Positions 8,079-60,140 of a stretch of 64,000 nucleotides of DNA are shown piece by piece (within the stretch, counting starts at the first letter, position 1; each line of letters begins with the position of its first letter). A program made the translations under genes and the position numbers. The notes below the pieces were generated by a model. That model did no database searches. It saw nothing but the letters and a program-made list of their open reading frames with translations, and was not told the origin of the DNA. Location of the stretch: positions 1 to 64,000 of the IMG/VR virus record IMGVR_UViG_3300017917_003637. One strand, written 5' to 3'. This DNA is from a virus.

Positions 8079-8108
8079 CACCAATTAACCAATTAAAGTA
8101 AACGACTT

Positions 8109-8571: not shown

Positions 8572-8581
8572 TGGTGTCAGT

Positions 8582-8596: not shown

Positions 8597-8636
8597 TAAC
8601 CCCTACACGTATATAACGTAATAAATTATATCAATT

Positions 8637-8897: not shown

Positions 8898-8917
8898 TAA
8901 ATAAATTAAACAACACA

Positions 8918-9090: not shown

Positions 9091-9103
9091 TTTTAATAAT
9101 ATA

Positions 9104-9134
9104 TTTGGTTATTAAATATATCATCGTATATTTG
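9104..9134 (+). promoter_or_regulatory. Bacteroidota sigma-A-type promoter
   Basis: TTTGG at 9104 and TATATTTG at 9127-9134; drives 9174. Confidence 0.85.
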
Positions 9135-9173
9135 CATCGCAATAATGCAGTAAACCAATTAAATTTTTTAAAA

Positions 9174-10058: not shown

Positions 10059-10081
10059 ACCAAAACCCAACACAACCAAGA

Positions 10082-10105
10082 AACGCCCCACAAGGGCGTT
10101 TTTTT
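10082..10105 (+). terminator. Rho-independent terminator
   Basis: AACGCCC/GGGCGTT, loop CACAA, followed by T tract. Confidence 0.88.
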
Positions 10106-10164
10106 ACGTTTATAGCTATCTTTATCCCAAAATGATATATAGATACCAAAATAAAATAAACGTG

Positions 10165-10188
10165 CCTTAAATCGCCTTAAATCGCCAA
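10165..10188. repeat. Tandem 10-bp repeat CCTTAAATCG
   Basis: Two and a half copies in the gap 10059-10296, just before copy 3 of the GTACAC element and a CCCGCGGG palindrome (10211-10218). Possible regulator binding site. Confidence 0.4.
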
Positions 10189-10189
10189 T

Positions 10190-10204
10190 GTACACTTTTG
10201 TGTC
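10190..10204. promoter_or_regulatory. GTACACTTTTGTGTC element, copy 3
   Basis: Identical to 4944-4958. Here it lies upstream rather than downstream of the promoter at 10232. Confidence 0.45.
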
Positions 10205-10231
10205 AGCGCCCCCGCGGGAGAGGTAAAAAAA

Positions 10232-10264
10232 TTTGGTAGTTTAAATAATTGTTATATATCTTTG
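10232..10264 (+). promoter_or_regulatory. Bacteroidota sigma-A-type promoter
   Basis: TTTGG at 10232 and TATCTTTG at 10257-10264 (spacing 25, slightly long); drives 10297. Confidence 0.75.
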
Positions 10265-10296
10265 CCGCAGAATTAACCAATTAAAAATATTATATT

Positions 10297-10635
10297 ATGG
10301 GCGAATGGAAAAAAAACTTATTGAAACGCTATTATTTGTTTAACGTAAACGGAGAATGTATTGGCGAATTTACCAAAAAAGAATTGCTAAATAAATTGAA
10401 TGTTAAAGAATGTACAATAAATTGTGCGATAAAACGAGTTTCCGTTATCTTAAGGAAATATTATATTTCCCATGATAAAAATTTTAAATTACCAAAACCA
10501 AAATCACATAGTCATAACCCATTTCTATCCAAAAAATATTGGGGAATAACAAATCAAGGTTTTAAACAAGCGAATTTAGATTTTTTATTTGAATACGAAA
10601 TCGGTGTTTTTAACCAACAATCTTTTTTGTATTAA
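10297..10635 (+). CDS. Hypothetical early basic protein (112 aa)
   Basis: The N-terminus LLKRYYLFNVNGECIGEFTKKELLNKL resembles a short strand-plus-helix unit seen in phage helix-turn-helix-like proteins. The segment NVKECTINCAIKRVS could be a recognition helix, and the rest is basic. DNA binding is a guess. Confidence 0.55.
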   Translation: MGEWKKNLLKRYYLFNVNGECIGEFTKKELLNKLNVKECTINCAIKRVSVILRKYYISHDKNFKLPKPKSHSHNPFLSKKYWGITNQGFKQANLDFLFEYEIGVFNQQSFLY

Positions 10636-10660
10636 TATAATAAATTTATCTTAAAAAAAA

Positions 10661-10693
10661 CTTTAACGTTTCTTTAACGTTTCTTTAACACTT
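10661..10693. repeat. Three tandem 11-bp iterons CTTTAACGTTT
   Basis: Copies at 10661-10671, 10672-10682 and a diverged third at 10683-10693 (CTTTAACACTT). The last sits where a -33 box would be, upstream of TATATTTG at 10713-10720, so they may be activator or repressor sites. Confidence 0.5.
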
Positions 10694-10720
10694 TTATCCA
10701 AAAAAATAGGTGTATATTTG
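10690..10720 (+). promoter_or_regulatory. Promoter with -7 box but poor -33 box
   Basis: TATATTTG at 10713-10720 without TTTG 23-24 bases upstream. The leader is different too (no ACCAATTAA). Activation through the iterons is plausible. Drives 10774. Confidence 0.55.
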
Positions 10721-10773
10721 CAGTGTTCAAATGAACGAAACGAAATTTAGTTTAACCAAAAATTCTTACAAAA

Positions 10774-11352
10774 ATGGACAAAAATCTTAAATTACTTGTA
10801 ACTGCAAAAACTATCAAAGGCACGTCATTTGTTGGGGTGCGTGATTATCAAAACACACAAGGCGAAGTTTCAAACTACACTATTAACGTTGGTTTTACTT
10901 ACGAAAACGTATTGACACACGATTTTACTAACCTTAAAAACAAACAAAAGGAAGTATTAACTATCCTTAAAAAATCTTACCCTATTGCCGTTATTAAACA
11001 AGCGTATAGCGAGGTTTACAATTCACTTGAAAAACGCCTATCCGATGAACAAACAAAAGCTGAATTAAGAGCCGAAAACGATGAAACTATTGCCCGTAGT
11101 GATGCCCAAATTAACGCCTATATCAATTTAGCCAAAGGTGTTAAATTGCACAAAGATACAATGCAGTTGCACGTTTTCGGTTTAGTAGTTAGAAAAACGA
11201 TTTTACAGCCAATCGAGTATAAGCAAACCAAAAGCCGAGAGCTAACAATCGTAAAGAATAAAATCAAAAAACTTTGCGAGTTTAAGCAAGACAAGTATAG
11301 AACGTTTATCTTTAACAAGTCCGAAATTAAAATGCAAGGTATCGCAATTTAA
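10774..11352 (+). CDS. Hypothetical early protein (192 aa)
   Basis: Starts MDKNLKLLVTAKTIKGTSFVGVRDYQ and continues with a beta-rich domain, then charged helices with Lys/Glu (residues 85-125) and a basic C-terminus. This resembles small phage proteins of the SLOG/WYL-neighbour type only vaguely; I do not assign a family. It is the last gene of the early region, closed by a terminator. Confidence 0.62.
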   Translation: MDKNLKLLVTAKTIKGTSFVGVRDYQNTQGEVSNYTINVGFTYENVLTHDFTNLKNKQKEVLTILKKSYPIAVIKQAYSEVYNSLEKRLSDEQTKAELRAENDETIARSDAQINAYINLAKGVKLHKDTMQLHVFGLVVRKTILQPIEYKQTKSRELTIVKNKIKKLCEFKQDKYRTFIFNKSEIKMQGIAI

Positions 11353-11382: not shown

Positions 11383-11615
11383 ATGCCCAGAATTAAAGTG
11401 TTAAAATTATGTTAAAATTTATTATATTATTTGGATATATCAATTATTTGACTTGACCTCAAATAAGACGTTTTAAGCCACTTTGTTATAATATGGATAC
11501 AATATACCTATTTGAAAAGATAATGCCGCATACCCCTCCCTACACCCCTCCTCCCCTCCGTTACCGCCCTCCCCTCCGCCCCCGTATGCCGAGCCAAACC
11601 CCACCCATGATGATG
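11383..11615. other. Gene-free boundary with C-rich (pyrimidine) tract
   Basis: The stretch 11353-11853 has no credible gene. Bases about 11528-11607 are a strongly strand-biased C-rich tract with runs of CCCCTCC and CCGCCC, unlike anything else in this AT-rich window. Frames through it on both strands are low-complexity Pro/Arg or Gly/Glu and are not believable proteins. Confidence 0.6.
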
Positions 11616-11797
11616 TTCGCAAAATTTTTCTGGGAAATTTTTTTAGGTGAAAAAACAAAGTGGTTTTCGCAAAATTTTTCTGGGAAATTTTTTTAGCTGA
11701 AGTATTAGACCCCTTTTTCAAAAATTTTTTCTGGGAAATTTTTTTAGGTGAAATATTAAGACCCTCTTTTTCAAAAAATTTTTTTGGGAAATTTTTG
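11616..11797. repeat. Four tandem AT-rich repeats with 50-53 bp period
   Basis: Copies begin at about 11616, 11666, 11717 and 11770. Each has the core AAATTTTTCTGGGAAATTTT followed by TTTAG(G/C)TGAA in copies 1-3; copy 4 is shorter and diverged. The core contains self-complementary AAATTT blocks. No spacers, so it is not a CRISPR array. It lies between the early region and the first late gene and may be an origin, packaging or regulator site. Confidence 0.75.
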
Positions 11798-11827
11798 GTC
11801 AAAATTATTCGGTCTTATTATTTACGG

Positions 11828-11853: not shown

Positions 11854-12825
11854 ATGATAAAATTGTTAGAACTTTACAATGGGTTGTTAGAATCCAAGGC
11901 AACCGAAGCTCAAGGCCTTAACATACTTAAGAAGGCTGGTGTAGAGAATGCTGATGGTGTTATGTCAGAATTTAAATCAGCTGATGCTAGCAACAATCAA
12001 AAGAATCTTCCAATCATGGCTTATTTGTATGCCAATGGGTATAAAGACATTCGCAACATAACTAGTGTTGTTAATGACTATAATCAGTTGGAAAAGATGG
12101 GGAAGGTTAAGACCATACAATTAACCAAACAAGGTATTGTGATGGGTGATACCATTTATAATGACTTTATAAAGTTTTCTGAGTTTATTGATGGCAAGAT
12201 GAATGAATTAAACAGGGCTAACCAAATAAAATCCAATGTTGCTGCTGATTTCAAGGCTGAGAAGAAGCCGATATGGAGTGGCAATGGCATTGACATATAT
12301 GATGGGTTGGGTGTTGGTAAGTGTATTTCATATACTCAAGGTGCGTTGACTGGTAAGGCTTATTCTTTTTGTATTGGTCAACCTGCTAACACGATGTATC
12401 AATCGTATAGGGATACCCAGACATCAACGTTTTATTTTATTGTGGATAGAAATCATTTTGCTGAGGACCCAGATGGTAGTGTTAATTTGGATGACCCTTT
12501 GCATATTGTTGTATTTGACAATACTCAGCATGGTGTTGAATTGACCGATGCTAATAATACAACTGGTATAATAGCTGAGCCGTTTGGTGATGACCCTAAC
12601 AAGTATGTTGAGTATTTGGAATCTAAGGGGGTTCCTGTTAATAAGTTGTTGGTGAATAAGCCTAAGACTGATGATGAGAGAAAAGAGGATGAGATGTTGG
12701 GTCAAAGGAATAGTAGTCTTGAATGGTTTATTAAATTGCCAATGGATTATAAGAGCAAGTATATTGGTAGGGGTCATGTGTTGACCAACGACCAATTTGA
12801 TTATTTAATGAGAGGTGATAAATAA
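11854..12825 (+). CDS. (W/H)C-motif family protein
   Basis: 323 aa. The N-terminus MIKLLELYNGLLESKATEAQ is helical. The central region has DIYDGLGVGKCISYTQG, then YSFCIGQP at residues about 170-177, then a beta segment TFYFIVDRNHF and DDPLHIVVFDNT. This order (first Cys in KC.xY, second Cys in a (W/F/H)C motif, then strands) matches the genes at 18069 and 26696 and, more loosely, those at 14245 and 20339. The function of the family is unknown; relation to PcfJ-like proteins is inference. Preceded by a late motif and followed after three bases by 12829. Confidence 0.65.
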   Translation: MIKLLELYNGLLESKATEAQGLNILKKAGVENADGVMSEFKSADASNNQKNLPIMAYLYANGYKDIRNITSVVNDYNQLEKMGKVKTIQLTKQGIVMGDTIYNDFIKFSEFIDGKMNELNRANQIKSNVAADFKAEKKPIWSGNGIDIYDGLGVGKCISYTQGALTGKAYSFCIGQPANTMYQSYRDTQTSTFYFIVDRNHFAEDPDGSVNLDDPLHIVVFDNTQHGVELTDANNTTGIIAEPFGDDPNKYVEYLESKGVPVNKLLVNKPKTDDERKEDEMLGQRNSSLEWFIKLPMDYKSKYIGRGHVLTNDQFDYLMRGDK

Positions 12826-12828: not shown

Positions 12829-13443
12829 ATGAACAATAGGGATTTAATTAGACAATATGTTGACACTGGTTTACAGTTACCAAAATATCAAGTCATGCAA
12901 TTATCTGGCGCTGATAAAAAAACTTATATACGTAAACGACTTATTGCAACTAAGGATTCTATTGATATGTTTCGTTTAATGTCTTATGAAATTGATTTGA
13001 TGGATTCTGAAAATAAGGATAAGTATTATGAAAAATTATTTAAAGAAAACCTTAATTCAAACACTATAACGACTTTTAGAGTAATGGATAAATTTTTCTT
13101 TGAATTAAGTGATGAGATTAAATCAAAATTTTTGGATACAGTAATTGATAAAGGTATAATGTTACCTTCACATTATTTTAATGACTTACCGTTTACCGAT
13201 AAACTTAAATATTTAAAATGGAATGCTAGTCTTCCTTTAAGCAAACACACGATTTATGATGTTTTTAAATATTTAATTGAAGAGTTAAAAATATATTATA
13301 TTAAAAATTTAATAAAATATCATGGTGAAAATATATTAAACCACGATAGTATTCGATGGAAAATTGCAAACCACCAAGATACAATATATTTAGATTTTTT
13401 AAACATTATTAAAAAGTACAATTTAATTAAAGATGAACAATAG
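12829..13443 (+). CDS. Hypothetical protein sharing its N-terminus with the next gene
   Basis: 204 aa. The first 37 residues (MNNRDLIRQYVDTG...PKYQ..QLS.ADKKTYIRK) are nearly identical to those of the gene at 13433; the rest differs and is helical with many Tyr, Ile and Lys. The DNA of the two starts is almost identical, so this is a recent partial duplication. The end of this gene (DEQ stop) is created by the start of the next, with an 11-base overlap. Confidence 0.7.
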   Translation: MNNRDLIRQYVDTGLQLPKYQVMQLSGADKKTYIRKRLIATKDSIDMFRLMSYEIDLMDSENKDKYYEKLFKENLNSNTITTFRVMDKFFFELSDEIKSKFLDTVIDKGIMLPSHYFNDLPFTDKLKYLKWNASLPLSKHTIYDVFKYLIEELKIYYIKNLIKYHGENILNHDSIRWKIANHQDTIYLDFLNIIKKYNLIKDEQ

Positions 13444-14245
13444 GGATTTAATAAGACAATATGTTGACACTGGTGTGGGTATCCCTGAATATCAGTTTAA
13501 TCAGTTATCTGCTGCTGATAAGAAGACGTACTTGCGTAAGATAGAGATAGGGATTAAATATAATAGTAGTAAAGTTAAATATTACTATGCTGTTTTACCA
13601 GAAGAGTCTCAATTATATCTTGTTAATCAGGATAATTCAAAAATAGAATACATAAAAGAACCAACTGAGAAAGTTCAGTTAGTAGCAGTTAGAAAATCTG
13701 GTTACGCAATAAAATACATAAAAAATCCAAGTGAAGACGTTAAATTAGCAGCAGTTAGACATTGTGGTAATGCAATAAAGTACATACAAAATCCAAGTGA
13801 AGAAGTTCAGTTAGCAGCAGTTAAAGAATATGGTCTCACAATACAATACATAAAAAATCCAAGTGAAGAAGTTCAGTTAGCAGCATTTAGAGAAAATAGT
13901 CATGCAATAAAATACATACAAAATCCAACTGAGAAAGTTCAGTTAGTAGCAGTTAAAAAATATGGTCTCGCAATACAACACATAAAAGAACCAACTGAGA
14001 GAGTTATGTTAGCAGCAGTTAGAGAAAATAGTGATGCAATAAAATACATAAAAAATCCAAGTGAAGAACTTCAGTTGGAAGCGGTTAGACAAAATGGTTA
14101 CTCAATAAAATACATACAAAATCCAAGTGAAGAAGTTCAGTTAGCAGCTATTAATAACGACATTGATTCATTATTATTCATAAAAAACCCAAGCAAAGAA
14201 GTTAAGGTTTTATATAAAAAATTATATTATAAAAATTTAAGATAA
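13433..14245 (+). CDS. DUF4116-type repeat protein
   Basis: 270 aa. It has the 37-residue N-terminal module shared with 12829, then one degenerate and eight clear 22-residue repeats plus a partial ninth. The consensus is YI(K/Q)NPSEEVQLAAV(R/K)..G.AIK. These resemble DUF4116 repeats (helical, HEAT-like), common in amoebal and phage-related proteins and thought to mediate binding. The 66-bp DNA units are well conserved, suggesting recent expansion. The stop overlaps the next start (TAATG). Confidence 0.75.
   Translation: MNNRDLIRQYVDTGVGIPEYQFNQLSAADKKTYLRKIEIGIKYNSSKVKYYYAVLPEESQLYLVNQDNSKIEYIKEPTEKVQLVAVRKSGYAIKYIKNPSEDVKLAAVRHCGNAIKYIQNPSEEVQLAAVKEYGLTIQYIKNPSEEVQLAAFRENSHAIKYIQNPTEKVQLVAVKKYGLAIQHIKEPTERVMLAAVRENSDAIKYIKNPSEELQLEAVRQNGYSIKYIQNPSEEVQLAAINNDIDSLLFIKNPSKEVKVLYKKLYYKNLR
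13649..14200 (+). repeat. 66-bp coding repeats
   Basis: Eight units plus a partial copy encoding the 22-residue DUF4116-type repeats of the gene at 13433. Unit starts are spaced exactly 66 bases. Confidence 0.85.
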
Positions 14246-15879
14246 TGAATACAAGCATACGCAATATACTTAGAGAGGGTCTAATTCTAGAGGCCTCAAA
14301 GAAACAAATCCTTATAGACAAGTTAGGGTTTGACGAAAACTCAGCTAGCATACTTGATAGACTATGTGGTCCGTTGAGTGTTTGGATGGGCAACAAGATA
14401 CTTGATTATAATAGGTTAATGACAAGTAGACCTAATGATACTAGAACTCCAGAGGAAATAAAGACCAACATTATTGTAATGTCAAGATTATTTGTTAATA
14501 ATAATCGTCAAAACATTACATCTATTATGGACTGGGTTCGTGTTGGTCTTAATGGTAACTTAGGTCCTAACAAGGAATTAAGCTTTGGTAAATTATATGA
14601 AGCTTCTCAAAAGTGGCATGATGAATTGGAAGTTGGGTCAGGAGACGTCAACTATGTTGAGGAGAATCCTGTTATACTTGACTTTAGACAACCTGATGGC
14701 ACAGGATATTATTGGGCTGACTTAGAAACGAACAATTCCAAAGAGGAATGTGAGCGTATGGGTCATTGTGGTCGTAGTGGTGCTGGTATGATTTATTCGC
14801 TTAGACAAGTAATACAATTAAATGATAAGTATAAGCTTAACAAGTCTGTGTTGACTGCTGCTATTGGTACCAACGGTATTATATATCAGATGAAGGGTGG
14901 TAAGAATAGCAAGCCTGAGGCCAAGTATCATCAGTATATTTATCCATTGTTATTCTTAAAGAACGGTGATGATTATTTTATCAAAGGTTTTGGTAGTGAA
15001 TACGATAGTGCTAGTGACTTTAAGTTAACTGATTTTAGTGATGATGTTATTGGTGAGATATTTGCTAAGCGTCCTGAGTTGTTTAACAAAAGAGCTCTTA
15101 AGAAGAAATTATTTAAATTGGGTCTTATTGACAAGTTACCAGAGGAATACATATCGCTTGAGATTGCTCCTGATAGGGTTGATAGATATGTTGATGGTGA
15201 TTACACGGTCAGCAAGCGTACCATAAAGACTCCAGCTGGTGGTGAAAGAACCGTTGATGTTGGTTTATTTGAACTCATATTGGCTGGTGAAACATGGGAC
15301 TTGTGGGATAATTATGATGCGGATTGGAAAGCGGCTTTGCAGTATCATGCTGACAGTGATAGTGAGGCTAGAATTCGTGAGATATTGGTGGCCATGGCTG
15401 CTAAGAATGGTGTTGAGATTGATGAAGATTTATCGTTGGAAGATATGATAGAGGAATATGATGAGAATGAAGAGATTATCGAAGCTTTGAAAAGGGCTAC
15501 TGACGATGCTGAGTCTGATGCTTATGCTGATGATATATACAAGACATTAAAGAGCGCTCTTGAGGAATTGGGTGGTGTTGAGAGAATGGATGACACTGGT
15601 GTCGTATTGAGGGTTAATATGGGTCATTATTTGGATGAATTGGAGGATGATGTTTATGAAGAGATTTCTGACAGATGCGACGATGATTTGCCATGTATGT
15701 TTAATGAGATGATTGGTGAGTGGATTGATAAGCCTGATTTCAGATTTAATGACAGTTATTATTACCCAAATGTTAACGACGAATACTTCAATGAGTTATT
15801 GCAAGAAAGACTTGATGAGATTAGACTTGATGAGGGCAAAGTAATGATTAAGAATATGTTAAGAGAGAGATTTAGATAA
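14245..15879 (+). CDS. Tagged (W/H)C-motif family protein
   Basis: 544 aa. The N-terminus MNTSIRNILREG carries the recurrent tag with L-R-E at residues 9-11. The C-terminus MIKNMLRERFR carries a second tag-like segment. The centre has ETNNSKEECERMGHCGRSGA at residues about 158-178, followed by strands (VLTAAIGTNGIIYQMKGG), as in the other family members. Residues about 330-520 are very acidic. If packaged in the head as proposed, it would be injected with the DNA. Function unknown. It is convergent with 15913 across a bidirectional terminator. Confidence 0.7.
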   Translation: MNTSIRNILREGLILEASKKQILIDKLGFDENSASILDRLCGPLSVWMGNKILDYNRLMTSRPNDTRTPEEIKTNIIVMSRLFVNNNRQNITSIMDWVRVGLNGNLGPNKELSFGKLYEASQKWHDELEVGSGDVNYVEENPVILDFRQPDGTGYYWADLETNNSKEECERMGHCGRSGAGMIYSLRQVIQLNDKYKLNKSVLTAAIGTNGIIYQMKGGKNSKPEAKYHQYIYPLLFLKNGDDYFIKGFGSEYDSASDFKLTDFSDDVIGEIFAKRPELFNKRALKKKLFKLGLIDKLPEEYISLEIAPDRVDRYVDGDYTVSKRTIKTPAGGERTVDVGLFELILAGETWDLWDNYDADWKAALQYHADSDSEARIREILVAMAAKNGVEIDEDLSLEDMIEEYDENEEIIEALKRATDDAESDAYADDIYKTLKSALEELGGVERMDDTGVVLRVNMGHYLDELEDDVYEEISDRCDDDLPCMFNEMIGEWIDKPDFRFNDSYYYPNVNDEYFNELLQERLDEIRLDEGKVMIKNMLRERFR

Positions 15880-15915
15880 AAAAAAAGGGACCTTTGCGGT
15901 CCCTTTGTTATTTTA
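15880..15915. terminator. Bidirectional terminator
   Basis: AAAGGGACC (15884-15892) and GGTCCCTTT (15898-15906). There is a long A run on one side and TTTGTTATTTT on the other. It serves both converging genes and is stronger for the minus strand. Confidence 0.82.
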
Positions 15916-17427
15916 TAGTATAAATCTTTTTCTAAGTGATTCTTTAATGTCTTCTTTTTGTTGAATTTGTTTAAATTCTTTTTCGATTCCAAGTCTCTTA
16001 GCAATTTCTTCTGGTGTGATGTGTGAGCCGTGAGTTGGTGAACCCATGCTTTCATCCATTTCTTGATGTTTGTTAAGTCTTGTGTTAACGTAATCGATAA
16101 GGAAGTTAACCATTTTAGATACTGTATCAAATACTGTTACCATATTTTCTGGGTTTCCACCCCACATGATTGTGTAGTTAAGACTTGTTGTTTTAAGGTC
16201 AAAGCCAAACGCGTACATAAACATCCATGCTGATATTTCTGCTTGTTGTTCGACGGTTTGGTTTCCATCACCTTCTCTTCCGACGAAGAAATCAATCTTG
16301 CCCTTAGACTTAAGATAGGTTTGGTGTAGGAGTTCGTGAGATATTTCGTGAGCAAATGTTTTGGTTGTACCAACATCGTTTCCTTCGTTTGCAAGCAATG
16401 TGATTTTTCCATTCTTAGAAACACCTCTTGCACCACCTAAGTCATCAGAAAAATCAACATGTATTCCGTGTTCGTCGCAAAATTCTAGAAGTGACATATA
16501 AATTGGTCTAACTGAATCGTCAATCATTCCTTCTTCAAACCATTTAACTTTTTTGATATCATCTTGAGCTCCAGTTATGAAATCTTCTTTGCCTTCCATT
16601 TGAACGGTTTGTGATACGTCGTATGCTGGAACAAGTTCAAATGCTGATGCTAGCATTGGTGGTCTTAATTTTGTTTTAAGTCTTATTTTTTCGTTTGGTG
16701 ACAAAGCGTCAACTGATGATTTTTTCAAAGAAGCCAAAAAGTCTTTGGTTATTTGTTCTTTTTTGTCTTTTGAATAACTATATTGTTTTCCTTTGGGTCT
16801 CCAAACTAGAATTGGCTTCGCGTCTGGTTTGATAGTTCTGTTGTAGTCTTCTCTCCAGATTTCTTTGTTATTTACGATGGTTGCATCTGGCATTTGTATC
16901 CAAATAAGCAATGTATTGGTTGGTGTGTATTTATAACCTAACGCGCCTCTAAATCTAAGAAACTTTGACATTGTATCTTTGAATTGTTCATCGTCTTGAA
17001 TGTTTGTTATTTGTTTTTTGAACAATAACAATTTGGTTTCAATTTCATCCTTTTGAAGTTGTGTTACTTTGACTTCAGGGTCAGAGGTATCAACCTCTGC
17101 TGAGTTTAAGAAATCAAGGATTTTATCTATTTCAAATTCAATCTTAGCAGCAGCTTCATCAGAACTTTGAATGCTTTTGATGAACTCCATGGCTGGTTTT
17201 ATATATTTGTTGATTGTTTTTTGTGGGTCTTCTTTATCAAGCCACCAATAATAATACTTTTCTTTGAAATTGTATTTCATATTGAAAGAATCTTGAAGAC
17301 GTTGTCCTATGCTTTTGTCGATAAAGCCTTTTAGCTTTGCAATTGGGTATTCACCTAAATTAGATTTAACTAATCTAATTTCTACTTCTGATAACATATT
17401 TTTCATTATATTGGTCATTTTACTCAT
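15913..17427 (-). CDS. ArdC-like antirestriction protein with zincin peptidase domain
   Basis: 504 aa. Residues about 150-280 resemble the ArdC N-terminal ssDNA-binding domain: FLRFRGALGYKYTPTNTLLI, WIQMPDATIV, ILVWRPKGK and VPAYDVSQT. Residues about 315-420 are a metallopeptidase domain with the zinc motif HEISH at 360-364 and a probable third ligand Glu397 in VEQQAEISAW. ArdC proteins protect incoming DNA from restriction. The N-terminus has MKNMLSEV and the C-terminus IKESLRKRFIL, both resembling the packaging tag. The late motif on this strand overlaps the first ATG, so translation may begin at 17418 (MTN) or 17409 (MKNMLSE). It is divergent from 17463. Confidence 0.75.
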   Translation of the reverse strand: MSKMTNIMKNMLSEVEIRLVKSNLGEYPIAKLKGFIDKSIGQRLQDSFNMKYNFKEKYYYWWLDKEDPQKTINKYIKPAMEFIKSIQSSDEAAAKIEFEIDKILDFLNSAEVDTSDPEVKVTQLQKDEIETKLLLFKKQITNIQDDEQFKDTMSKFLRFRGALGYKYTPTNTLLIWIQMPDATIVNNKEIWREDYNRTIKPDAKPILVWRPKGKQYSYSKDKKEQITKDFLASLKKSSVDALSPNEKIRLKTKLRPPMLASAFELVPAYDVSQTVQMEGKEDFITGAQDDIKKVKWFEEGMIDDSVRPIYMSLLEFCDEHGIHVDFSDDLGGARGVSKNGKITLLANEGNDVGTTKTFAHEISHELLHQTYLKSKGKIDFFVGREGDGNQTVEQQAEISAWMFMYAFGFDLKTTSLNYTIMWGGNPENMVTVFDTVSKMVNFLIDYVNTRLNKHQEMDESMGSPTHGSHITPEEIAKRLGIEKEFKQIQQKEDIKESLRKRFIL

Positions 17428-17433
17428 AAATAT
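17425..17433 (-). promoter_or_regulatory. Late-type motif ATATTTATG
   Basis: Overlaps the first ATG of the minus-strand ArdC-like gene. A second motif for the divergent gene lies two bases away. Confidence 0.55.
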
Positions 17434-17462: not shown

Positions 17463-18065
17463 ATGAAAAATATCATTAAACAATTGCTTAGAGAGCAATT
17501 TGTAACCGAGGAAACATACACCAATGACATAGAAAAATTCTTGGACCAAGACCCTAAAAAAATGACAACGGGTACTGCGTATTACATTTCATCTATGGAT
17601 AGTTCTATGAACAAATTTATAACTGATGACAACGGAAACAAGATTGAAAATCCTATGTATGGCAAAGTGTTTAAACATACTAGATTTATATTCAAATGGC
17701 ATGACACTTATGAAAGAGCCATGAAGCGTGTTAACCCTAGTTATATCGCTGGTGAAAGACGTGGAGAGTATAAACCAGTTGAGGGTTATGATATGCTTGA
17801 GAGTGGTAAGAGTGGTTTATATTTCCCGATTGTACCAACTGGAAGCGAATATAATTTAGTTTTGTGTGATGGTGGTTGCAAAGTTGTTGATAAGAGCGTT
17901 ATTAGACCTTATTTGAAGCCTTCTACGGGAAGTAATTGGTCAGATGAAGGTAAACAACAATACAGACAATTAATTCTTGACAGAGCAGTCAAAATAACTG
18001 GTGGTGGCAACGAATGGATTAACAATAACCTAAAAGCTCAATGGCTTGGGGTTGGAAATGTTTAA
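17463..18065 (+). CDS. Tagged hypothetical late protein (200 aa)
   Basis: The N-terminus MKNIIKQLLREQ is a model example of the recurrent tag, with E at residue 11. The rest is mixed alpha/beta (YYISSMDSSMNKFITDD, TRFIFKWHDTYERAMKRVNP, LVLCDGGCKVVDKSVIRPYL). No family is recognised. If gp21-type protease cuts after LRE, the mature protein starts QFVTEETYTN. It lies three bases upstream of 18069 and is probably co-transcribed. Confidence 0.68.
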   Translation: MKNIIKQLLREQFVTEETYTNDIEKFLDQDPKKMTTGTAYYISSMDSSMNKFITDDNGNKIENPMYGKVFKHTRFIFKWHDTYERAMKRVNPSYIAGERRGEYKPVEGYDMLESGKSGLYFPIVPTGSEYNLVLCDGGCKVVDKSVIRPYLKPSTGSNWSDEGKQQYRQLILDRAVKITGGGNEWINNNLKAQWLGVGNV

Positions 18066-18068: not shown

Positions 18069-20249
18069 ATGAAAGACATAATAAAAAAATTACTTAAAGA
18101 AACCCTTGTGGTTGAATTTTATGGTAAGAGGATTATTGAACCCATAACCAAAAGATTCAACGATTCTTCTGATGACATGATAAACAAATTGGCTATTGCT
18201 TTTTTGTTTAAGTCATTTTTTGGTGACATTATGCAATATCAAACCAAAGAACAATTTGAGCAAATGTTCAACAAATGGTATGAAGGGGTGTTGGGTGAGA
18301 TGGTTAAGACCAAGGATTTTCCAGATAACAAACCGTTGGCCAAAAAATACTTAGATGCTTATATAAACAACATCGTTTCATTAGGCGATGCTGCAAGACC
18401 ATTTTCATTTAAAGACTTAGAGAAAACATTGGTTGATTTAATCAACAACAATCGTTGGATTCCAGATGAGGAAGTTAGTGTTGGTCCTTCAATATACAAG
18501 CCTAATCAAGATGACATAATGTATGAGGATGACGAAGTTTTAATTTTAAATACTGATACCAAGGCTAAGTGTGTGAGATACGGTATGGGTGAAACATGGT
18601 GTATTACAAAAGCTGACCAAAATTATTATAACACATATAGACTTAGCTATGGCGCAACACCTTATTTTGTTTTGCAAAAGAATGTTAATGGTGATGAGCA
18701 CAAATTGGTTATTTTGAATTATGGTGGTCGTGACGCTTATGCTATTGCTGATAGAAGCAACACTGGTGAAAGAAGCGGTAGTCAACATCATGCAATGTCT
18801 TGGTATGAGATAGAGCAGCAGTTACCTAATTTACAAGGTCTTGAAGAATATTTCCCATATAGAGAGATTACTGATGACGAACGTAAATATTCTGAATTGT
18901 TGGATAGGCTTAAAGATATGTTTATTTTTGATGACTTACAAGGACTTATTGATAAATCTGCTGAAAAATTGGTTATAAACGGTTCACCTATTACCTCTGG
19001 TGATTTTATTAGAGATTTAGCAGCAACTAGAATGACATTTAAGTTAGAGCAATTAAAGAGTCTAAGAAAAGAAACAATGGATAGTCTTATTGAGTCTGGA
19101 TATTTTGTGAATTCATATTACGATACTAAATTATATGAAGAAGTGTTATCACCGTCTCAAATAAATCGTATTATAAAACTGAAGATAGATAACAATAAGG
19201 TTCTAGATGACGTTTTTTATCAATTTATGAGTCCAGATGCTCTTAAAAAATACATGATATTAAGAATAAATGGACACAACAATGGGGCCAATGATAGTTG
19301 GAGTAGTGGTATTAATGAAAAACTCTTAGATTACGATGAAATTAAGGTTATTAAGGAAATATTACCAGATGCTAATATAAACGCAAACAGATATGATTTC
19401 TCTAATGAATATTTTTCATATTTAGGTTTATTAATTGACCCTAGCTTGATTAATAACCCAGAAGTTAAAGAAAACTTAAATAAATTATCAAAGTATCAAA
19501 TACAACATTTAATAAAGACCTACCCTGATTTAACTAAATACTTAGTTAGGTTAAAAGGTTTTAATGAAATAGAAGATTGGCAATTGGCTAATATATTAGA
19601 GGATAACCCAAAAATCTATAAACTAGTGTTAAATAGTTTATCAGAAGAAAGAAGGGCAGCGCTTTTAGAAAGGTTAGAATATACTAAACTATTACCTGTA
19701 TTGATTAGAGATAAATACATTTCGATAGACAATGAAGAAGACTTTAAAAGGGTTAGATATATACTTATTTATGATACTAAGGCTAAGGCGTTTGTTTATG
19801 TTCCAGATTTGTTAAGGTTTATCACTAGTAGTTATGACCTTGAAAAACTGTTAGTACAACAACCAATATTGTTTAAATACTTGGGTGATAAAATAAACTC
19901 GATTACTGATTATGATTTAAAAGACATTATTCAAAAAAACCCAAAATCTTTAAACTATATCCCTGACGAGCGTATTGATGCTATGGGTGAATACAGAATA
20001 TACAGTATGATATATAGTAAACCAATTCTTGCCCGTCAGTTATCTCATAAGATTGGTATGAATTATATTATAGATATAATTAAATCAGTTCCTAAGGTTA
20101 TTCAATACTTACCAGATTCTGTGTTTAAACAACTAGATAAATACGATATGGTAAGTATCTTATACAAAAAAGAGTTGTATCCTTATATGGAGCCAATAAT
20201 TGACAAATACATGCCAGATGATAAAGATTATATCTTAGATAGGTTATAA
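18069..20249 (+). CDS. Tagged (W/H)C-motif protein with helical repeats
   Basis: 726 aa. Tag MKDIIKKLLKET at the N-terminus. At residues about 160-215 lies the family motif: VLILNTDTKAKCVRYG, GETWCITKAD, then TPYFVLQKN and HKLVILNYGGRDAYAIADRS. From about residue 300 to the end the protein consists of short helical units with conserved Leu/Ile, Tyr and Pro (NNPEVKENLNKLSKYQIQHL; IKSVPKVIQYLPDSVFKQL), reminiscent of the DUF4116-type repeats. It looks like an effector-like architecture: packaging tag, small globular domain, binding repeats. The activity is unknown. Confidence 0.7.
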   Translation: MKDIIKKLLKETLVVEFYGKRIIEPITKRFNDSSDDMINKLAIAFLFKSFFGDIMQYQTKEQFEQMFNKWYEGVLGEMVKTKDFPDNKPLAKKYLDAYINNIVSLGDAARPFSFKDLEKTLVDLINNNRWIPDEEVSVGPSIYKPNQDDIMYEDDEVLILNTDTKAKCVRYGMGETWCITKADQNYYNTYRLSYGATPYFVLQKNVNGDEHKLVILNYGGRDAYAIADRSNTGERSGSQHHAMSWYEIEQQLPNLQGLEEYFPYREITDDERKYSELLDRLKDMFIFDDLQGLIDKSAEKLVINGSPITSGDFIRDLAATRMTFKLEQLKSLRKETMDSLIESGYFVNSYYDTKLYEEVLSPSQINRIIKLKIDNNKVLDDVFYQFMSPDALKKYMILRINGHNNGANDSWSSGINEKLLDYDEIKVIKEILPDANINANRYDFSNEYFSYLGLLIDPSLINNPEVKENLNKLSKYQIQHLIKTYPDLTKYLVRLKGFNEIEDWQLANILEDNPKIYKLVLNSLSEERRAALLERLEYTKLLPVLIRDKYISIDNEEDFKRVRYILIYDTKAKAFVYVPDLLRFITSSYDLEKLLVQQPILFKYLGDKINSITDYDLKDIIQKNPKSLNYIPDERIDAMGEYRIYSMIYSKPILARQLSHKIGMNYIIDIIKSVPKVIQYLPDSVFKQLDKYDMVSILYKKELYPYMEPIIDKYMPDDKDYILDRL

Positions 20250-20338: not shown

Positions 20339-21571
20339 ATGGGAAGACAAATTAACAAAGAAAAAGTCCTTGAAGAAAAGGGTGAGGTTAAACAATACAC
20401 CTTATTTAATGAGCATAAATCTCAAAAATTAAATTGGTTGTTAGATGTGTATAAAAAGGACCCTTACAAAGCGCGAGTTTTATATTTTAACAACATTGGT
20501 TCTTTTTATATTGAGCGAAGTGTTTGTTTTGAAAGAACTGATGGTAGTTTTGAAATCTGCCGTTTTAAAAGAACTTTTGGGATGACAAAAACCAATCGAA
20601 TTTATTCTAGGGAAAAGAAGTTAACTTCTTTGATTTATAAGAATAAAAAGTTTTATTTTAAAAACGGTTCATCTATTAAGCATGCTATGTATCATGATAT
20701 CTTAAATCATTTTAGTTTTGCTAAACATTTTTTACTAGAAAAATTTCCATGGCTTAGAAACATAGCAGAGAATAAATATTGTCACAACGTTTCGTTATCG
20801 TCAATTTTGACTTATAAATTATTCAACGCTGATAAGGTTTTGAAACATTTATATAAAGCACCAACATCGGTTATCAAAACGTTGACTACTGAGTATGAAA
20901 AAAGGACTAGTAGCCATGGTTATATTTCAAAATTTGAGTGGAAAAGAATTAGTCCATATTTAATAAACATTGAAAATTTGAAAATAGAACATTTCACAAA
21001 TTATTTGTTTAGGGATACCATTGAAATGGCTATTAAATTAGATAAGAAGGTTAATTGTTCATGGTCTGAGAAAAGACTTAAACTTGAACACGATACGTGG
21101 GCCAAAGAGCTTAGAAAAATCATGCTTGAGTTCGAACCGTTAATTCAATTAAATCCTCATAAAATATTTGAAGATTTTGAACAATTTACTGGATACAAGA
21201 TGCTAAGAACCAACCATGAATTAATCGAGGAAGGTCATAAACAAGACCATTGTGTTGCTGGTTATGGTGGTTCAATTTCCTCTGGTCGTTCTGGGATTTA
21301 TCAAGTTAGTGGATACACACTTGAGGTTAGTTATAGAGAAGATTATGGTATCGGTACCAACTTAAATAACAAGAAAAGATTACACTATTCTCAACTTAGA
21401 GGTTTCCGTAATTGTTCGGCACCAATGGTATTGGATAACACTGTTAAAAGTTATATCCAAGCATTTAACGATAAGTATGATTTTGATGATTATGAAAAAT
21501 ACTTAAGAGAAAATAAGGTTGGTCTTAAAACTGTAGTTGAAGAGATTAACAGATATGAATTACCATTTTAA
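20339..21571 (+). CDS. PcfJ-like protein
   Basis: 410 aa. Residues about 285-370 match the PcfJ signature: HELIEEGHKQDHCVAGYGG, a Gly/Ser-rich turn, IYQVSGYTLEVSY, then LHYSQLRGFRNCSAP. PcfJ was first named on conjugative plasmids and is widespread on mobile elements; its biochemical role is not settled. The N-terminal 280 residues are basic and helical. It uses a host-type promoter and no packaging tag, unlike the related tagged genes at 14245 and 18069. Confidence 0.8.
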   Translation: MGRQINKEKVLEEKGEVKQYTLFNEHKSQKLNWLLDVYKKDPYKARVLYFNNIGSFYIERSVCFERTDGSFEICRFKRTFGMTKTNRIYSREKKLTSLIYKNKKFYFKNGSSIKHAMYHDILNHFSFAKHFLLEKFPWLRNIAENKYCHNVSLSSILTYKLFNADKVLKHLYKAPTSVIKTLTTEYEKRTSSHGYISKFEWKRISPYLINIENLKIEHFTNYLFRDTIEMAIKLDKKVNCSWSEKRLKLEHDTWAKELRKIMLEFEPLIQLNPHKIFEDFEQFTGYKMLRTNHELIEEGHKQDHCVAGYGGSISSGRSGIYQVSGYTLEVSYREDYGIGTNLNNKKRLHYSQLRGFRNCSAPMVLDNTVKSYIQAFNDKYDFDDYEKYLRENKVGLKTVVEEINRYELPF

Positions 21572-25833: not shown

Positions 25834-26157
25834 ATGGACCTCAAGCCTAAAATACGACAAATCTTAAGAGAACACTACGGTGAATTCGAGACCTATTTAG
25901 AACATAAATACGAAGAAGTTTTAACCGAAAACCTAATTACTGGTTCTACCAAAGTAAAAGAAGCTTGGGCTACTTACAATCAAGTTGTTTTAGAATTAAA
26001 AAATAGTATAAAAAACACACTTAAACTAAAAGAGTTACAATACAAATTAACAGAAAATTCAAACCCAAAAGACATGTGTATTGAAGTCATATCTGACATA
26101 AAAGACGTGTCTCCTGAACTAAAAAGGCTATACGAAAAAATAAAAACTTTGTATTAA
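25834..26157 (+). CDS. Tagged hypothetical late protein (107 aa)
   Basis: The N-terminus MDLKPKIRQILREH carries the tag with I-L-R-E ending at residue 13. The C-terminal 45 residues (LKELQYKLTENSNPKDMCIE...) align with the end of 26303 (LKEVKYRMTDGENPNEIMLD...), so the two are paralogues. Helical throughout. Function unknown. Confidence 0.62.
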   Translation: MDLKPKIRQILREHYGEFETYLEHKYEEVLTENLITGSTKVKEAWATYNQVVLELKNSIKNTLKLKELQYKLTENSNPKDMCIEVISDIKDVSPELKRLYEKIKTLY

Positions 26158-31013: not shown

Positions 31014-31421
31014 TTATATGTAATCTTCTGGGTGTAGTCTTCCCCATTTTCTCATTATTACCCCAGCCAATGCATTGGCTTCGTTTTCTATTGGACTACC
31101 GTCAGCACCATCTTTTTCTGGGTCTGTTAGTTTTCCAATTATATTTTGTTTGTGATGTACAAGCTCATGAGCAATTGAACGCATAACGTCAATCTTCGCT
31201 CTATCCTTTACATATACTTTAACTCTATGGTCACTGTTGTGATAATACGCTGTTGTTCTTAAGTCTGGTGTTTTTTCAAACGCCAATTCAACTTTTACAT
31301 CATCATCTATAGCTAACAATTTCTTAGCAAAGTTTACAAAATCAGACACATCCAAGACATCTTCTTTGTCTTTGGTCATGATTGCTTCTCTAAGTAATTG
31401 TTTTATAAATCCTTTTGACAT
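31014..31421 (-). CDS. Tagged zincin metallopeptidase
   Basis: 135 aa from the ATG at 31421. The longer frame to 31466 crosses the late motif and is rejected. Tag MSKGFIKQLLREA at the N-terminus, with E at residue 12. Zinc motif HELVHHKQ at residues 85-92 and a probable third ligand Glu in IENEANALAG (residues 112-114). The predicted fold is a minimal zincin like other small phage peptidases. If packaged and injected, it would act on host proteins early; alternatively it may function in assembly. Upstream of 30370 in one transcript. Confidence 0.75.
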   Translation of the reverse strand: MSKGFIKQLLREAIMTKDKEDVLDVSDFVNFAKKLLAIDDDVKVELAFEKTPDLRTTAYYHNSDHRVKVYVKDRAKIDVMRSIAHELVHHKQNIIGKLTDPEKDGADGSPIENEANALAGVIMRKWGRLHPEDYI

Positions 31422-31435
31422 TATTATAGTTTTAC

Positions 31436-31444
31436 TATAAATAT
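31436..31444 (-). promoter_or_regulatory. Late-type motif ATATTTATA
   Basis: Followed by GTAAAACTATAATA and the ATG at 31421 on the minus strand. Confidence 0.66.
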
Positions 31445-31454
31445 TGTTTAAAAT

Positions 31455-31480
31455 AAAAAAACCCACTTTCGTGGGCTTTT
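31455..31480 (-). terminator. Rho-independent terminator of the Clp gene
   Basis: On the minus strand CCCAC-GAAA-GTGGG followed by TTTTTTTATTTT. Confidence 0.85.
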
Positions 31481-53787: not shown

Positions 53788-54513
53788 ATGGATATAAATT
53801 ATAAAGACTTTAGAATACTTAAGAGAGGTGAATCTGGTTGGGGTGGCCTTATTGAGCACGATGCTGGGTATATTAGCCCAGATGAACCTAGAAACCAACC
53901 ATTCATCAACGAAATCAAAAAACTAGACGGTGGCAGCAAATTAGCCATAGTCGAGCCGTTAATCGTATATGTAGTACTTCAAAAATACGGAATCCTTAAT
54001 CGTAACGGTAGGGTATATCCAGAATCAGTATTAAAAAAACAAGTTAATCTTTATCAAGAAGCAATTCGTGAGCGTAGAGCGGTTGGTGAATTAGACCACC
54101 CAGAATCTTCAATTATTGCTGGTGATAGAATTTCACATAATATTATTGAAACTTGGTGGGAAGGACAAACCCTTATGGGTAAGATGGAAATCCTTATGAC
54201 TCCAGGTTTTATAAACTATGGTATTGTATCAACTAAGGGTGATGAGGTTGCAAACTTATTGAGAAACAGAATCAAGATTGGAGTTTCTTCTAGAGGTGTT
54301 GGTTCGCTTAAAGAAGGTAAAAACGGAGAACAAATAGTACAAGATGATTTTGAAATTATTTGTTGGGATGTGGTTACAGCACCTTCAACTCCAGATGCTT
54401 GGATTGGCCGTAGCGCTGAAGAAATGAAGCCATATGTTGAAAACACTGAAGTTAAAAAACCAATTATCAAAGAAACACTTAAGGATAACTTAGATAAATT
54501 TTTAGCTGATTAA
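53788..54513 (+). CDS. Prohead core protease (T4 gp21-like)
   Basis: 241 aa. GILNRNGRVYP (about 68-78), GELDHPE with catalytic His104, and IKIGVSSRGVGSL with catalytic Ser167 or Ser168 are the diagnostic motifs of T4 gp21-type herpes-like proteases. DFEIICWDVVTAPSTPDAWI closes the domain. The enzyme is active inside the prohead and cuts scaffold, capsid and internal proteins after (L/I)-x-E. This specificity fits LLTE|A in the capsid protein and L-R-E in the recurrent N-terminal tags. Confidence 0.94.
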   Translation: MDINYKDFRILKRGESGWGGLIEHDAGYISPDEPRNQPFINEIKKLDGGSKLAIVEPLIVYVVLQKYGILNRNGRVYPESVLKKQVNLYQEAIRERRAVGELDHPESSIIAGDRISHNIIETWWEGQTLMGKMEILMTPGFINYGIVSTKGDEVANLLRNRIKIGVSSRGVGSLKEGKNGEQIVQDDFEIICWDVVTAPSTPDAWIGRSAEEMKPYVENTEVKKPIIKETLKDNLDKFLAD

Positions 54514-55925: not shown

Positions 55926-57785
55926 ATGTCACATTTATTGACTTCAGGACAAGTTGGTAACATCGGATTAAACCACATGAAGGCTATCCGTTTGGAAACC
56001 CAACAAAAATGGGACTCTTTAGGATTCTTAGATGGTCTTAAAGGTCACGTTAAAGAAAATATTGCTCAGTTATATGAAAACCAAGCTTCAAACTTGTTAA
56101 CTGAGGCAACTAACGCTACATCATCTGGTTCTTTCGAGACTGTAGTATTCCCAATCGTAAGAAGAGTTTTCTCAAAATTATTAGCTAACGACGTAGTATC
56201 TGTACAAGCTATGAACATGCCAATTGGTAAATTGTTCTACTTTGTGCCTCTTACTTCAGAGCGTGTAAACGCTGCTGGTCAAGGTGGTGACCCATATGCT
56301 ACAACTGCATCTAGTGATGTTTGGTCTACTAACCCAGTATACTCTGCTCACACTTCAATGGGTAACGAAGGTATTCCATCATGTGTTAAAGCTGCTGGTA
56401 GTACTTGTACTGTAACTCCATTTGCTGCTAAAAACTTGTACGATATATTCTACAACGATGGTTTATTCGATAACTCAAAAGGTACTCTTACAATTAAGAC
56501 TGCTAGCCCACTAGGTGTTTACACTTTAGGTACTGACGGTGCTTTCAGTATTGTAACTGGTACTGGTACTACTTTACCTACAGCTGCTGACGGTTCTGTT
56601 AGAAGCGTAATTGTTGCTCTTTCTGGTTTCTCAGGTGGTGCAGGTTCTAACGGTAGAGAAGTGTTGACAGGTCCTGATGGAAACAACATGGATACTGAAT
56701 CATTCTTAGCGTCTCTTCACGTAATCGCTGGTTCTACATTGTTAGACGCAGATGGTAACGCTGTTGTTGCTATCAACAAAGAAGTTCCATTCCGTCTTGT
56801 TACTCAAAGATACGGTGTTGGTATCGTTTCTGGTCCTAACGTTGTAACTGATGGTAACGGTGTATGTTGGTTAGAGTTAGATTTGACTCACCCAGTTGGT
56901 ACTTCTGCTACTGCTGGTGCATCTTACCCAGGTACTGCAACTTATGATGGTTATGTAGGTGTTTCTGCAACAACATTCCCTTCATTCTCAGGTTTCAGTG
57001 CTGCATGGGCTGAATACGCAACATTAGAGTTCGAAACAGAAATGGGTGAAGTATCATTCAGACTTGATGAAGTTGTTGTTTCTGTAGAAGAAAGAAAATT
57101 AAGAGCTACTTGGTCTCCAGAGTTAGCACAAGACGTTAGTGCATTCCACAACATCGATGCTGAAGCTGAGTTGACAGCTATGTTGTCAGAACAAGTTGCT
57201 GCTGAGATTGACCGTGAAATCCTTAGAGATTTACGTAAAGCTGCTGCATGGCAATTGCGTTGGGACTACAACGGATGGAGAAAAACTTCAACTGCTGCTC
57301 AACCATATACTCAAAAAGAGTGGAACCAAACTTTAATTACTAAAGTTAACCAAATTTCTGCTCAAATCCATAAATCTACACTTAGAGGTGGTGCTAACTT
57401 CATCGTTGTATCTTCAGAGATTTCTGCAATCTTCGACGACTTAGAATACTTCCACGTGTCAGACGCTAACCCTGAGCAAGACCAATACAACATGGGTATT
57501 GAGAGAATCGGTTCATTAGGTGGTAGATATCAAGTATATCGTGACCCATATGCACCAGCATACTCAATCATCATCGGTCACAAAGGTAAATCATTATTGG
57601 ACACTGGTTACATCTACGCTCCGTATGTACCATTACAGTTGACTCCAACAATGTATAACCCATTCAACTTTGCTCCAGTGAAAGGTATCATGACTCGTTA
57701 CGCTAAAAAAGTGGTTAACAACAGATTCTATGGTCACTTGAGAGTTGATGGTGTACAAACCTTCAACATCAATGAATTAAGATAA
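55926..57785 (+). CDS. Major capsid protein (T4 gp23-like)
   Basis: 619 aa. The N-terminal region ends with YENQASNLLTE|ATNATSSGS: E60 before A61 is exactly the T4 gp23 maturation site type (LTE|A). PIVRRVFSKLLANDVVSVQA follows, then a long insertion domain (residues about 95-360) and the HK97-fold core (ELAQDVSAFHNIDAEAELTA, INREIL-like EIDREILRDLRKAA). The ending RVDGVQTFNINELR is also T4-like. Codon use is richer in strongly translated codons than in its neighbours. Strong terminator after the gene. Confidence 0.95.
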   Translation: MSHLLTSGQVGNIGLNHMKAIRLETQQKWDSLGFLDGLKGHVKENIAQLYENQASNLLTEATNATSSGSFETVVFPIVRRVFSKLLANDVVSVQAMNMPIGKLFYFVPLTSERVNAAGQGGDPYATTASSDVWSTNPVYSAHTSMGNEGIPSCVKAAGSTCTVTPFAAKNLYDIFYNDGLFDNSKGTLTIKTASPLGVYTLGTDGAFSIVTGTGTTLPTAADGSVRSVIVALSGFSGGAGSNGREVLTGPDGNNMDTESFLASLHVIAGSTLLDADGNAVVAINKEVPFRLVTQRYGVGIVSGPNVVTDGNGVCWLELDLTHPVGTSATAGASYPGTATYDGYVGVSATTFPSFSGFSAAWAEYATLEFETEMGEVSFRLDEVVVSVEERKLRATWSPELAQDVSAFHNIDAEAELTAMLSEQVAAEIDREILRDLRKAAAWQLRWDYNGWRKTSTAAQPYTQKEWNQTLITKVNQISAQIHKSTLRGGANFIVVSSEISAIFDDLEYFHVSDANPEQDQYNMGIERIGSLGGRYQVYRDPYAPAYSIIIGHKGKSLLDTGYIYAPYVPLQLTPTMYNPFNFAPVKGIMTRYAKKVVNNRFYGHLRVDGVQTFNINELR

Positions 57786-57856: not shown

Positions 57857-58636
57857 ATGAAAGAATTTATAAAAAAACTACTTAGAGAAGGGTTAGAAGA
57901 ATTAACACCTGAGGAATTGGAACAAATAAATGTGATAGTTAATAGGGAAATGATTCAAGCCAAAGAACGAATAGAAGAATTAAAACACGAGTTAGATACA
58001 ACTCATAAGGTGTTGGATTCAATATTAACAGCCATGGCTAGTGGTAAACTTGAAGGTGTTCCTACTGATTATGTTTTAAATATGAAAAAAGAAAAAGAGA
58101 ATAGAATTCATCAATTAGAAACATACATAAACAATTGGGAAAAAACCGATAGACAAGAAATCTTTAATAGAGTTTCCACTCAGTACTTAGCTAACAAAAA
58201 ATACGAACAAGAAAGACGTAAGGCTAGAGAGTCTAGAACATTTGGTAAAGAAGACATCATAAATTTATTTGTAGACGCTTTAGAGGGTGGTTCTAACTAT
58301 TGGTATGAAATACGTCATTTACCTAAAGAAGTTCGATATAAAGCAAACGAAATGGGTGAATCGGTATCTGAAGCCATAGGTGAATATATTCTTCAAGGTG
58401 GTTATGTTCAATTTTATGATGCTGAGGAAGAATATGACGACGATGATTATCAAGAAAAATATTCTGATAAAGGATTATTGGGTACAGTTGATATGAACTC
58501 AATACTGGAAGCAATAACAATAATAAAAAAAGATTACCCAGAAGTTTGGGAAAATATACTTGATGAGCAATATGATGCTAACGATGCTGATATATTTTTA
58601 CAGTTGTGTGTAATGGGTGAAGTGGTATTTGGATAA
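57857..58636 (+). CDS. Tagged coiled-coil protein with ALEGG-YW domain (259 aa)
   Basis: Tag MKEFIKKLLREG at the N-terminus (E at residue 11). Residues about 20-130 are coiled coil. Residues about 140-259 match a widespread phage domain of unknown function: VDALEGGSNYWYEIRHLP, EAIGEYILQGGYVQFYDAEE, KGLLGTVDMNSILEAITIIK, and NDADIFLQLCVMGEVVFG at the end. That domain is usually stand-alone in phages; here it is fused behind a packaging tag and coil. Confidence 0.72.
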   Translation: MKEFIKKLLREGLEELTPEELEQINVIVNREMIQAKERIEELKHELDTTHKVLDSILTAMASGKLEGVPTDYVLNMKKEKENRIHQLETYINNWEKTDRQEIFNRVSTQYLANKKYEQERRKARESRTFGKEDIINLFVDALEGGSNYWYEIRHLPKEVRYKANEMGESVSEAIGEYILQGGYVQFYDAEEEYDDDDYQEKYSDKGLLGTVDMNSILEAITIIKKDYPEVWENILDEQYDANDADIFLQLCVMGEVVFG

Positions 58637-59801: not shown

Positions 59802-60140
59802 TTATTGAAAATCTGAACCCAATTCACACAACGTTGATTGAATCTGATGCCAATAGGTGTCAGCTTGGTCTGGCATTGAATCTCCAGACATTTTTGATTT
59901 TTTAATTTGACCACTTATTTGATTCTGTTGGTGTCTTAAATTTTCTAACGGGGTGTGGATAACTTTCATTACTTTGTGTACTGTTTGTTCATCCATTCCT
60001 TTTAAAGCACCATTGACATACATCATAGCTTCTTCATAACTATCAATAGTCATTTTATTACACAATGTTTCCATTGTTTGATTCATTTCTTGACCATCAA
60101 TAAGTTGTTCTCTAAGCAATTTTTTTATAAAACTTTTCAT
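59802..60140 (-). CDS. Tagged hypothetical late protein (112 aa)
   Basis: Tag MKSFIKKLLREQ (E at residue 11), then a helical protein (MNQTMETLCNKMTIDSYEEA; NLRHQQNQISGQIKKSKM). Its start overlaps the stop of 60140 (TAATG), so it is translationally coupled to a tail-type gene. Function unknown. Confidence 0.65.
   Translation of the reverse strand: MKSFIKKLLREQLIDGQEMNQTMETLCNKMTIDSYEEAMMYVNGALKGMDEQTVHKVMKVIHTPLENLRHQQNQISGQIKKSKMSGDSMPDQADTYWHQIQSTLCELGSDFQ

Follow-up and report, generated by a model that had tools for sequence, protein, structure and literature searches.

Proteins that join an ArdC-N domain to a zincin metalloprotease have already been predicted, as a general class, to be delivered with DNA (Iyer et al. 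2017; PMC5512222), with the delivery of pSa ArdC and TraC1 together with DNA as a precedent (PMC5512222). ArdC of plasmid R388 overcomes HsdRMS without its protease activity, and relatives of the Spartan and PprI kind are reported for it (PMC7213743). Capsid-targeting peptides are classical in phage T4, where propeptides of 7 to 65 residues are cleaved at L/I-x-E, where the head-delivered ADP-ribosyltransferase Alt undergoes processing at its N- and C-termini, and where IPI is an injected antirestriction protein (PMC9026906). A literature search returned no report of ArdC in a virion. As far as our searches show, what is new at the present locus is that a plasmid-type ArdC carries, at each of its ends, a predicted removable address peptide for the capsid of the kind known from T4.

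The window analysed here is 64 kb of an 86,762-base IMG/VR virus record. The open reading frame that had been singled out, with no strand given, was confirmed to be real and lies on the minus strand, where it fills positions 15913-17427 and encodes 504 amino acids when counted from the first ATG at 17427. The true start is probably Met8 at 17406, resulting in a gene at 15913..17406 (minus) and a protein of 497 amino acids. This start was proposed because the first ATG is overlapped by the motif ATATTTAT (17426..17433, minus), whose end lies 19 nt upstream of Met8, and because the aligned starts of the homologues show the same spacing. For each of the seven homologues measured (the ArdC-like gene of the window and six others), the distance from the motif to the start was 13-20 nt, and the motif was likewise present before the ArdC-like gene of contig L004. 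It occurred within 60 nt upstream of 9 of 39 genes at 28-65 kb, where 0.6 were expected, and of none of the 18 genes at 1-11 kb. Upstream of the latter, TTGTTATA dominated (8 of 18 genes compared to 0.04 expected), and the labels late and early for the two motifs were assigned from the kinds of genes downstream. Judged from this distribution, late expression of the ArdC-like gene is very likely, and the late motif that the sequence-only reading had placed before the gene held up as late-type. The window thus has two motif classes, TTGTTATA...TTTGCA at the left end (1-11000) and ATATTTAT before the structural genes (28000-65000). We take the left-end motif to be Bacteroidota-like, and the host of the phage is therefore likely to belong to the Bacteroidota.

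The protein is almost certainly of the ArdC two-domain type. No family in Pfam or NCBIfam reached its cut-off when the single sequence was scanned, so the sequence-only reading, which had named an ArdC-type region combined with a zincin, caught something that a routine scan misses. PDB sequence searches, both single and profile, gave nothing relevant. In PHROGs, a metallo-protease family and an anti-restriction family were matched, and residues 148-445 aligned with two phage proteins marked as ArdC-N by Pfam (E 2.8e-12 and 2.6e-10), with zincin signals too. To exclude a match due to the zincin alone, the ArdC-N part was cut from a 12-sequence alignment and its profile was compared by hhalign with the ArdC-N of polyvalent proteins, which gave 97.0-97.7% (E 1e-10 to 2.5e-12), and the controls, consisting of other parts of the same polyvalent proteins, a reversed copy and shuffles, all stayed below 1%. 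Two AlphaFold models of moderate quality (pLDDT 72-74, pTM about 0.42) were searched with Foldseek, and with both models R388 ArdC (6i89) was the best match in the PDB and the sole one below 1e-3 (E 1.2e-4, probability 1.00). The global TM of this match was low, 0.35-0.37 of the target, and the relative placement of the domains is therefore tentative. The next matches to the second model, all weak, included Spartan and a PprI, and a BFVD fold search gave no match below 1e-3.

Two domains were recognised. The ArdC-N domain, of the ssDNA-binding type, covers residues 116-272 of 497 (16591..17061, minus) and is supported by hhalign and by Foldseek with 6i89. The zincin metalloprotease domain covers residues 293-447 of 497 (16066..16530, minus) and is supported by the PHROG matches, by Foldseek with 6i89 and then weakly with Spartan and PprI. 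The first ~100 residues matched no family in Pfam or PHROGs. HEISH, as had been read from the translation, is present at residues 360-364 of the 504-aa frame (16336..16350, minus) and provides H360, E361 and H364, and E393 of the ExxA motif (16249..16251, minus) is the probable third zinc ligand according to the homologue alignment and to the same motif in R388 ArdC.

Among viral contigs, seven relatives were found with the window protein as query and five more with a relative as query, three of the latter being nearly identical to each other. An alignment query (A1) added nothing beyond the single-protein scan, L007 as query found itself alone, and contigs from bacterial and archaeal genomes, when scanned, yielded no relative. 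In the phage collection, only distant polyvalent-type proteins matched. The four residues H360, E361, H364 and E393 (HEISH and EQQA) were conserved in 11 of 12 homologues. The remaining homologue, L007:7923-9491 from record G006, carries H360K, E361N, H364G and E393G while retaining ArdC-N and the C-terminal tag; with K, N, G and G at the zinc-site positions its protease should be dead, which would make it a natural protease-dead control. The zincin was the most conserved part of the members with an intact zinc site, at 62-87% identity to the window protein compared to 43-65% for ArdC-N, and in these members the dN of the zincin was lower than that of ArdC-N. Against the dead copy (G002-G006) the order was reversed, with a dN of 0.558 for the zincin and 0.466 for ArdC-N; omega values were rough because dS was high in most pairs. 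We infer from this pattern that proteolysis would matter in most of these phages, in contrast to antirestriction by R388 ArdC. Since the protease is most constrained where the zinc site is kept, the purpose of the protein may be to cut some host protein that sits on DNA. In two contigs, a 61-62 aa ORF directly before the ArdC-like gene (L083:4718-4906 and L084:4721-4906) resembled its C-terminal module (MDVAKFLGVEKEY).

Tags had been suggested at both ends of the protein, and both peptides are there, MKNMLSEV at residues 8-15 and IKESLRKRFIL at the C-terminus, although the N-terminal one is weak when taken alone. The N-terminal tag MKNMLSE (17386..17406, minus), with a putative prohead-protease site LSE/V (a slash marks the putative cut), appears to be a short version of the N-terminal tag helix of this phage. 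Close to their start, the homologues have LSE/V, LNE/V, LxE or IxE in seven of eight lineages, against a background of 4.8% for [LI]xE this near the start, and the N-terminal [LI]xE was absent from the G002 and G007 homologues. With a position-specific scoring matrix (PSSM) of the tag, the N-terminal peptide was equalled by 7% of internal 20-mers, which by itself fell short of significance, and the C-terminal peptide was the stronger match, equalled by only 0.1%. In the C-terminal tag (15916..15948, minus), a putative site IKE/ precedes a basic helical peptide, SLRKRFIL, and [IL]xE with this peptide or an equivalent was found in 11 of 11 complete homologues, L004 being outside the count as its gene ends at the contig edge. 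Of the 70 families present in four or more lineages, that of the ArdC-like protein was the only one with such a C-terminal site in every member. The case for the tags of the ArdC-like protein is made by comparison across relatives.

Unrelated proteins of this phage have in common an N-terminal helix that ends in LxE, in which it resembles the capsid-targeting peptides of T4. The strict N-terminal pattern (of the type MKNIIKQLLRE) was counted in eight records and was present in 6 of the 97 proteins of this record, with 0.10 expected by shuffling, and in 5/40, 7/316, 3/84, 2/56 and 5/109 proteins of relatives; G004 had one such protein, and G005, with almost no canonical tags, had none. The final three residues of the pattern are L/I-x-E, as cut by T4 gp21 (PMC9026906). 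A late-type motif preceded 20 of 48 tagged genes compared to 102 of 727 other genes (P 7e-6). Early-type promoters were found, however, on three tagged RNA-repair-type genes (in G002 and G004), and a tag may therefore not always be a sign of packaging. These genes, L027:3660-4847 and L027:13762-14700 (G002) and G004 49061-49990 (minus), encode enzymes with an N-terminal capsid-type tag, of the types CCA-adding/polyA polymerase head and kinase plus tRNA-ligase-type phosphodiesterase, and if packaged they would carry tRNA repair in with the DNA.

The PSSM scan also revealed a few further C-terminal tags, and C-terminal tags with a site were found at 7 of 1225 C-termini compared to 4 of 5668 internal windows (P 9e-4), a count that includes homologues and is thus not independent. 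With tags seen at both ends, the helix lies on the outside and the cutting site on the inside, whichever end is used. As a tentative proposal, somewhat short of even odds, there may be one helical address tag that is placed at either end of the cargo, with [LI]xE always on the cargo side. Injected effectors (the ArdC-like protease, the ADP-ribosyltransferase, other zincins and perhaps RNA-repair enzymes) could then be listed from sequence alone. In the distant records G008 and G009, the tags were not common to other proteins and no gp21 or gp23 was found.

The T4-type head genes lie on the plus strand of the window. The prohead protease of the T4 gp21 type (53788..54513; Peptidase_S77, PF03420, Pfam E 3.6e-26), present in six of the records, is the enzyme expected to cut the tags. 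The major capsid protein Gp23 (55926..57785; PF07068, Pfam E 2.3e-71) has its own LTE/A site at residue 60, and LTE/A or LTE/S was found at this position in all six records showing the protein. Judged by gp21, the closest isolated phages were a Microcystis phage and cyanophages at 34-44% identity, too far for a comparison of cargo.

Tagged genes surround the ArdC-like gene. The 544-aa neighbour at 14245..15879 (plus) is tagged at both ends, with MNTSIRNILRE/GL at the N-terminus and LDE/GKVMIKNMLRERFR at the C-terminus. The divergent 200-aa neighbour at 17463..18065 (plus) has a late-type motif and the tag MKNIIKQLLRE/Q, and it is followed by a 726-aa protein at 18069..20249 (plus) with MKDIIKKLLKE/T. 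Further away are a 107-aa protein at 25834..26157 (plus) with MDLKPKIRQILRE/H, a protein adjoining the capsid gene at 57857..58636 (plus) with MKEFIKKLLRE/G, and a protein at 59802..60140 (minus) with MKSFIKKLLRE/Q. A 150-aa protein at 31014..31466 (minus), which gave no Pfam match, combines (M)SKGFIKQLLRE/A with a second HExxH motif (HELVHH). The ArdC-like gene was flanked by tagged genes in G000, G001, G002 and G007, and in G004 it overlaps a tagged 388-aa gene that itself overlaps the gene for a tagged ADP-ribosyltransferase of the polyvalent type (L038:10767-11366, minus; PF18760, E 5.2e-11). This company is an association and not proof of packaging.

Other features were noted in the same region. 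Four 51-nt direct repeats (11614-11817) separate the left-end genes from the cluster of tagged genes, and similar sequence, appearing as odd ORFs, seems to be present close to this cluster in G001, G002 and G007. Positions 20339-21571 matched Pfam PcfJ (E 1.2e-6), and a WC/C...Y..Y region that resembles its PcfJ-type region is common to the four proteins encoded at 11854-12825, 14245-15879, 18069-20249 and 26696-28090. The adjacent genes at 12829-13443 and 13433-14245 share the identical opening peptide MNNRDLIRQYVDTG, possibly another shared N-terminal tag, and then diverge, the second having DUF4116 repeats. Rfam gave no match at 10-26 kb.

The identity as an ArdC, the conserved motifs at the ends of the protein, the late-type motif before its gene, and the presence of a prohead protease and of tagged neighbours suggest a mechanism in which an uncultured giant phage of the T4 superfamily would make an ArdC-type protein late and load it into the prohead, using a short helical peptide at one end or at each end. 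Cleavage at [LI]xE by the prohead protease of the gp21 type would follow and shorten the protein at its ends, and in this mature form it would leave the head together with the genome and sit on the DNA in the new host. There, it would protect the DNA by masking it, by cleaving a host factor bound to DNA (a restriction enzyme, for instance), or by both. The packaging, trimming, ejection and antirestriction or other counter-defence effect are what we infer, and we give the reading as a whole a probability of about 55%. Because both ends match the head-packaging and protease-cleavage signals of the phage, the protein is probably injected with the phage DNA, and packaging and delivery are on the sequence evidence likely. 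Antirestriction in the strict sense is plausible, at slightly less than even odds, and the target could be another DNA-bound host protein. The reading of late synthesis, packaging and delivery is opposed by the preference of ArdC for ssDNA, since phage DNA enters double-stranded. The N-terminal tag, weak alone and absent in G002 and G007, and the near absence of canonical tags in G005 also count against it. Finally, R388 ArdC is reported to act when expressed in the recipient and not when donor-borne (PMC7213743).

The protein could be packaged and delivered and yet cut a host protein other than a restriction enzyme, such as a DNA-bound defence sensor, a repressor or a nucleoid protein, its protease being switched on by DNA in the manner of Spartan and PprI. 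This is unlikely in our view, but the strong conservation of the zincin where the zinc site is intact, its relaxation in the copy that has lost the site, and the weak structural matches to Spartan and PprI behind ArdC all fit with it. Cleavage of host proteins was also proposed for ArdC-like zincins of jumbo phages (PMC7824862). In L007, in contrast, the protein has been retained, C-terminal tag included, after the loss of every zinc ligand, so proteolysis is not required for all of its function.

That the end peptides are not packaging signals, and that the protein is free in the infected cell with tags that bind another phage partner or are chance helices, appears quite improbable. The weakness of the N-terminal tag alone and the tags on genes with early-type promoters would agree with it, but the same helix occurs in unrelated proteins far above chance, it ends in LxE as cut by this protease class (PMC9026906), and the C-terminal [IL]xE is retained in all complete homologues. 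Furthermore, there is little sense in making an entry factor only late unless the next cell is to receive it. Likewise improbable is a protein that enters the prohead and does its work inside it or shortly ahead of packaging, for example in head maturation or in the removal of proteins crosslinked to the DNA being packaged, with delivery being incidental. A gp21-type protease is already encoded, the operon partner in G004 is an ADP-ribosyltransferase, an effector type and no maturation factor, and the nearest functional relatives have their effect on DNA that is entering the cell (PMC5512222, PMC7213743). In favour of it are the late-type motif together with prohead-type tags, the Spartan-like features of the fold, and the maturation role proposed for other zincins of jumbo phages (PMC7824862). 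If delivery of the tagged ArdC-like protein is true, injected counter-defence proteins could be listed directly in uncultured giant phages, and it would become testable why ArdC has a metalloprotease at all, given that R388 can do without it and that it is strongly conserved in the present group.

Compared to known systems, the phage protein has the same order of ArdC-N followed by a HExxH...ExxA zincin as R388 (PDB 6i89) and pSa ArdC. Identity to these is about 10%, and the phage protein differs by an extra N-terminal domain of ~100 residues, by a tag at each end and by expression from a late-type promoter of the phage. From sequence conservation, the protease looks essential in most phage members, whereas it is dispensable in R388 (PMC7213743). 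The pairing of ArdC-N with an MPTase domain is shared with polyvalent proteins (PMC5512222), and homology extends over about 250-300 residues to RadC-ArdC-N-MPTase and Toprim-ArdC-N-MPTase proteins, but the phage protein has no additional named catalytic domain. Iyer et al. tied ArdC-N mostly to conjugative elements (PMC5512222), whereas here it occurs with a T4-type head and prohead-protease-type tags. The ArdC-like zincins of group 3 jumbo phages belong to the same superfamily and also come from large phages, but the accessible part of that study does not describe tags, late expression or packaging for them (PMC7824862). Of the two parallels drawn in the sequence-only reading, P1 DarA/B is the looser and concerns delivery only. 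P1 DarA and Hdf are proteins of the phage head that have been connected with protecting phage DNA from restriction (PMC12810830), but they sit on the inner capsid surface, and their likeness to the phage ArdC would be a functional analogy only. The parallel to T4 is close, as T4 has short removable end peptides and Alt is processed at both ends; the cargo proteins themselves are not expected to be homologous. T4 IPI-III and Alt also share a short N-terminal peptide that ends in L/I-x-E and a gp21-type protease with the present system, in which packaging is putative, and two features set the present phage group apart, namely the IKxLLRE helix and the placing of a tag at the C-terminus.
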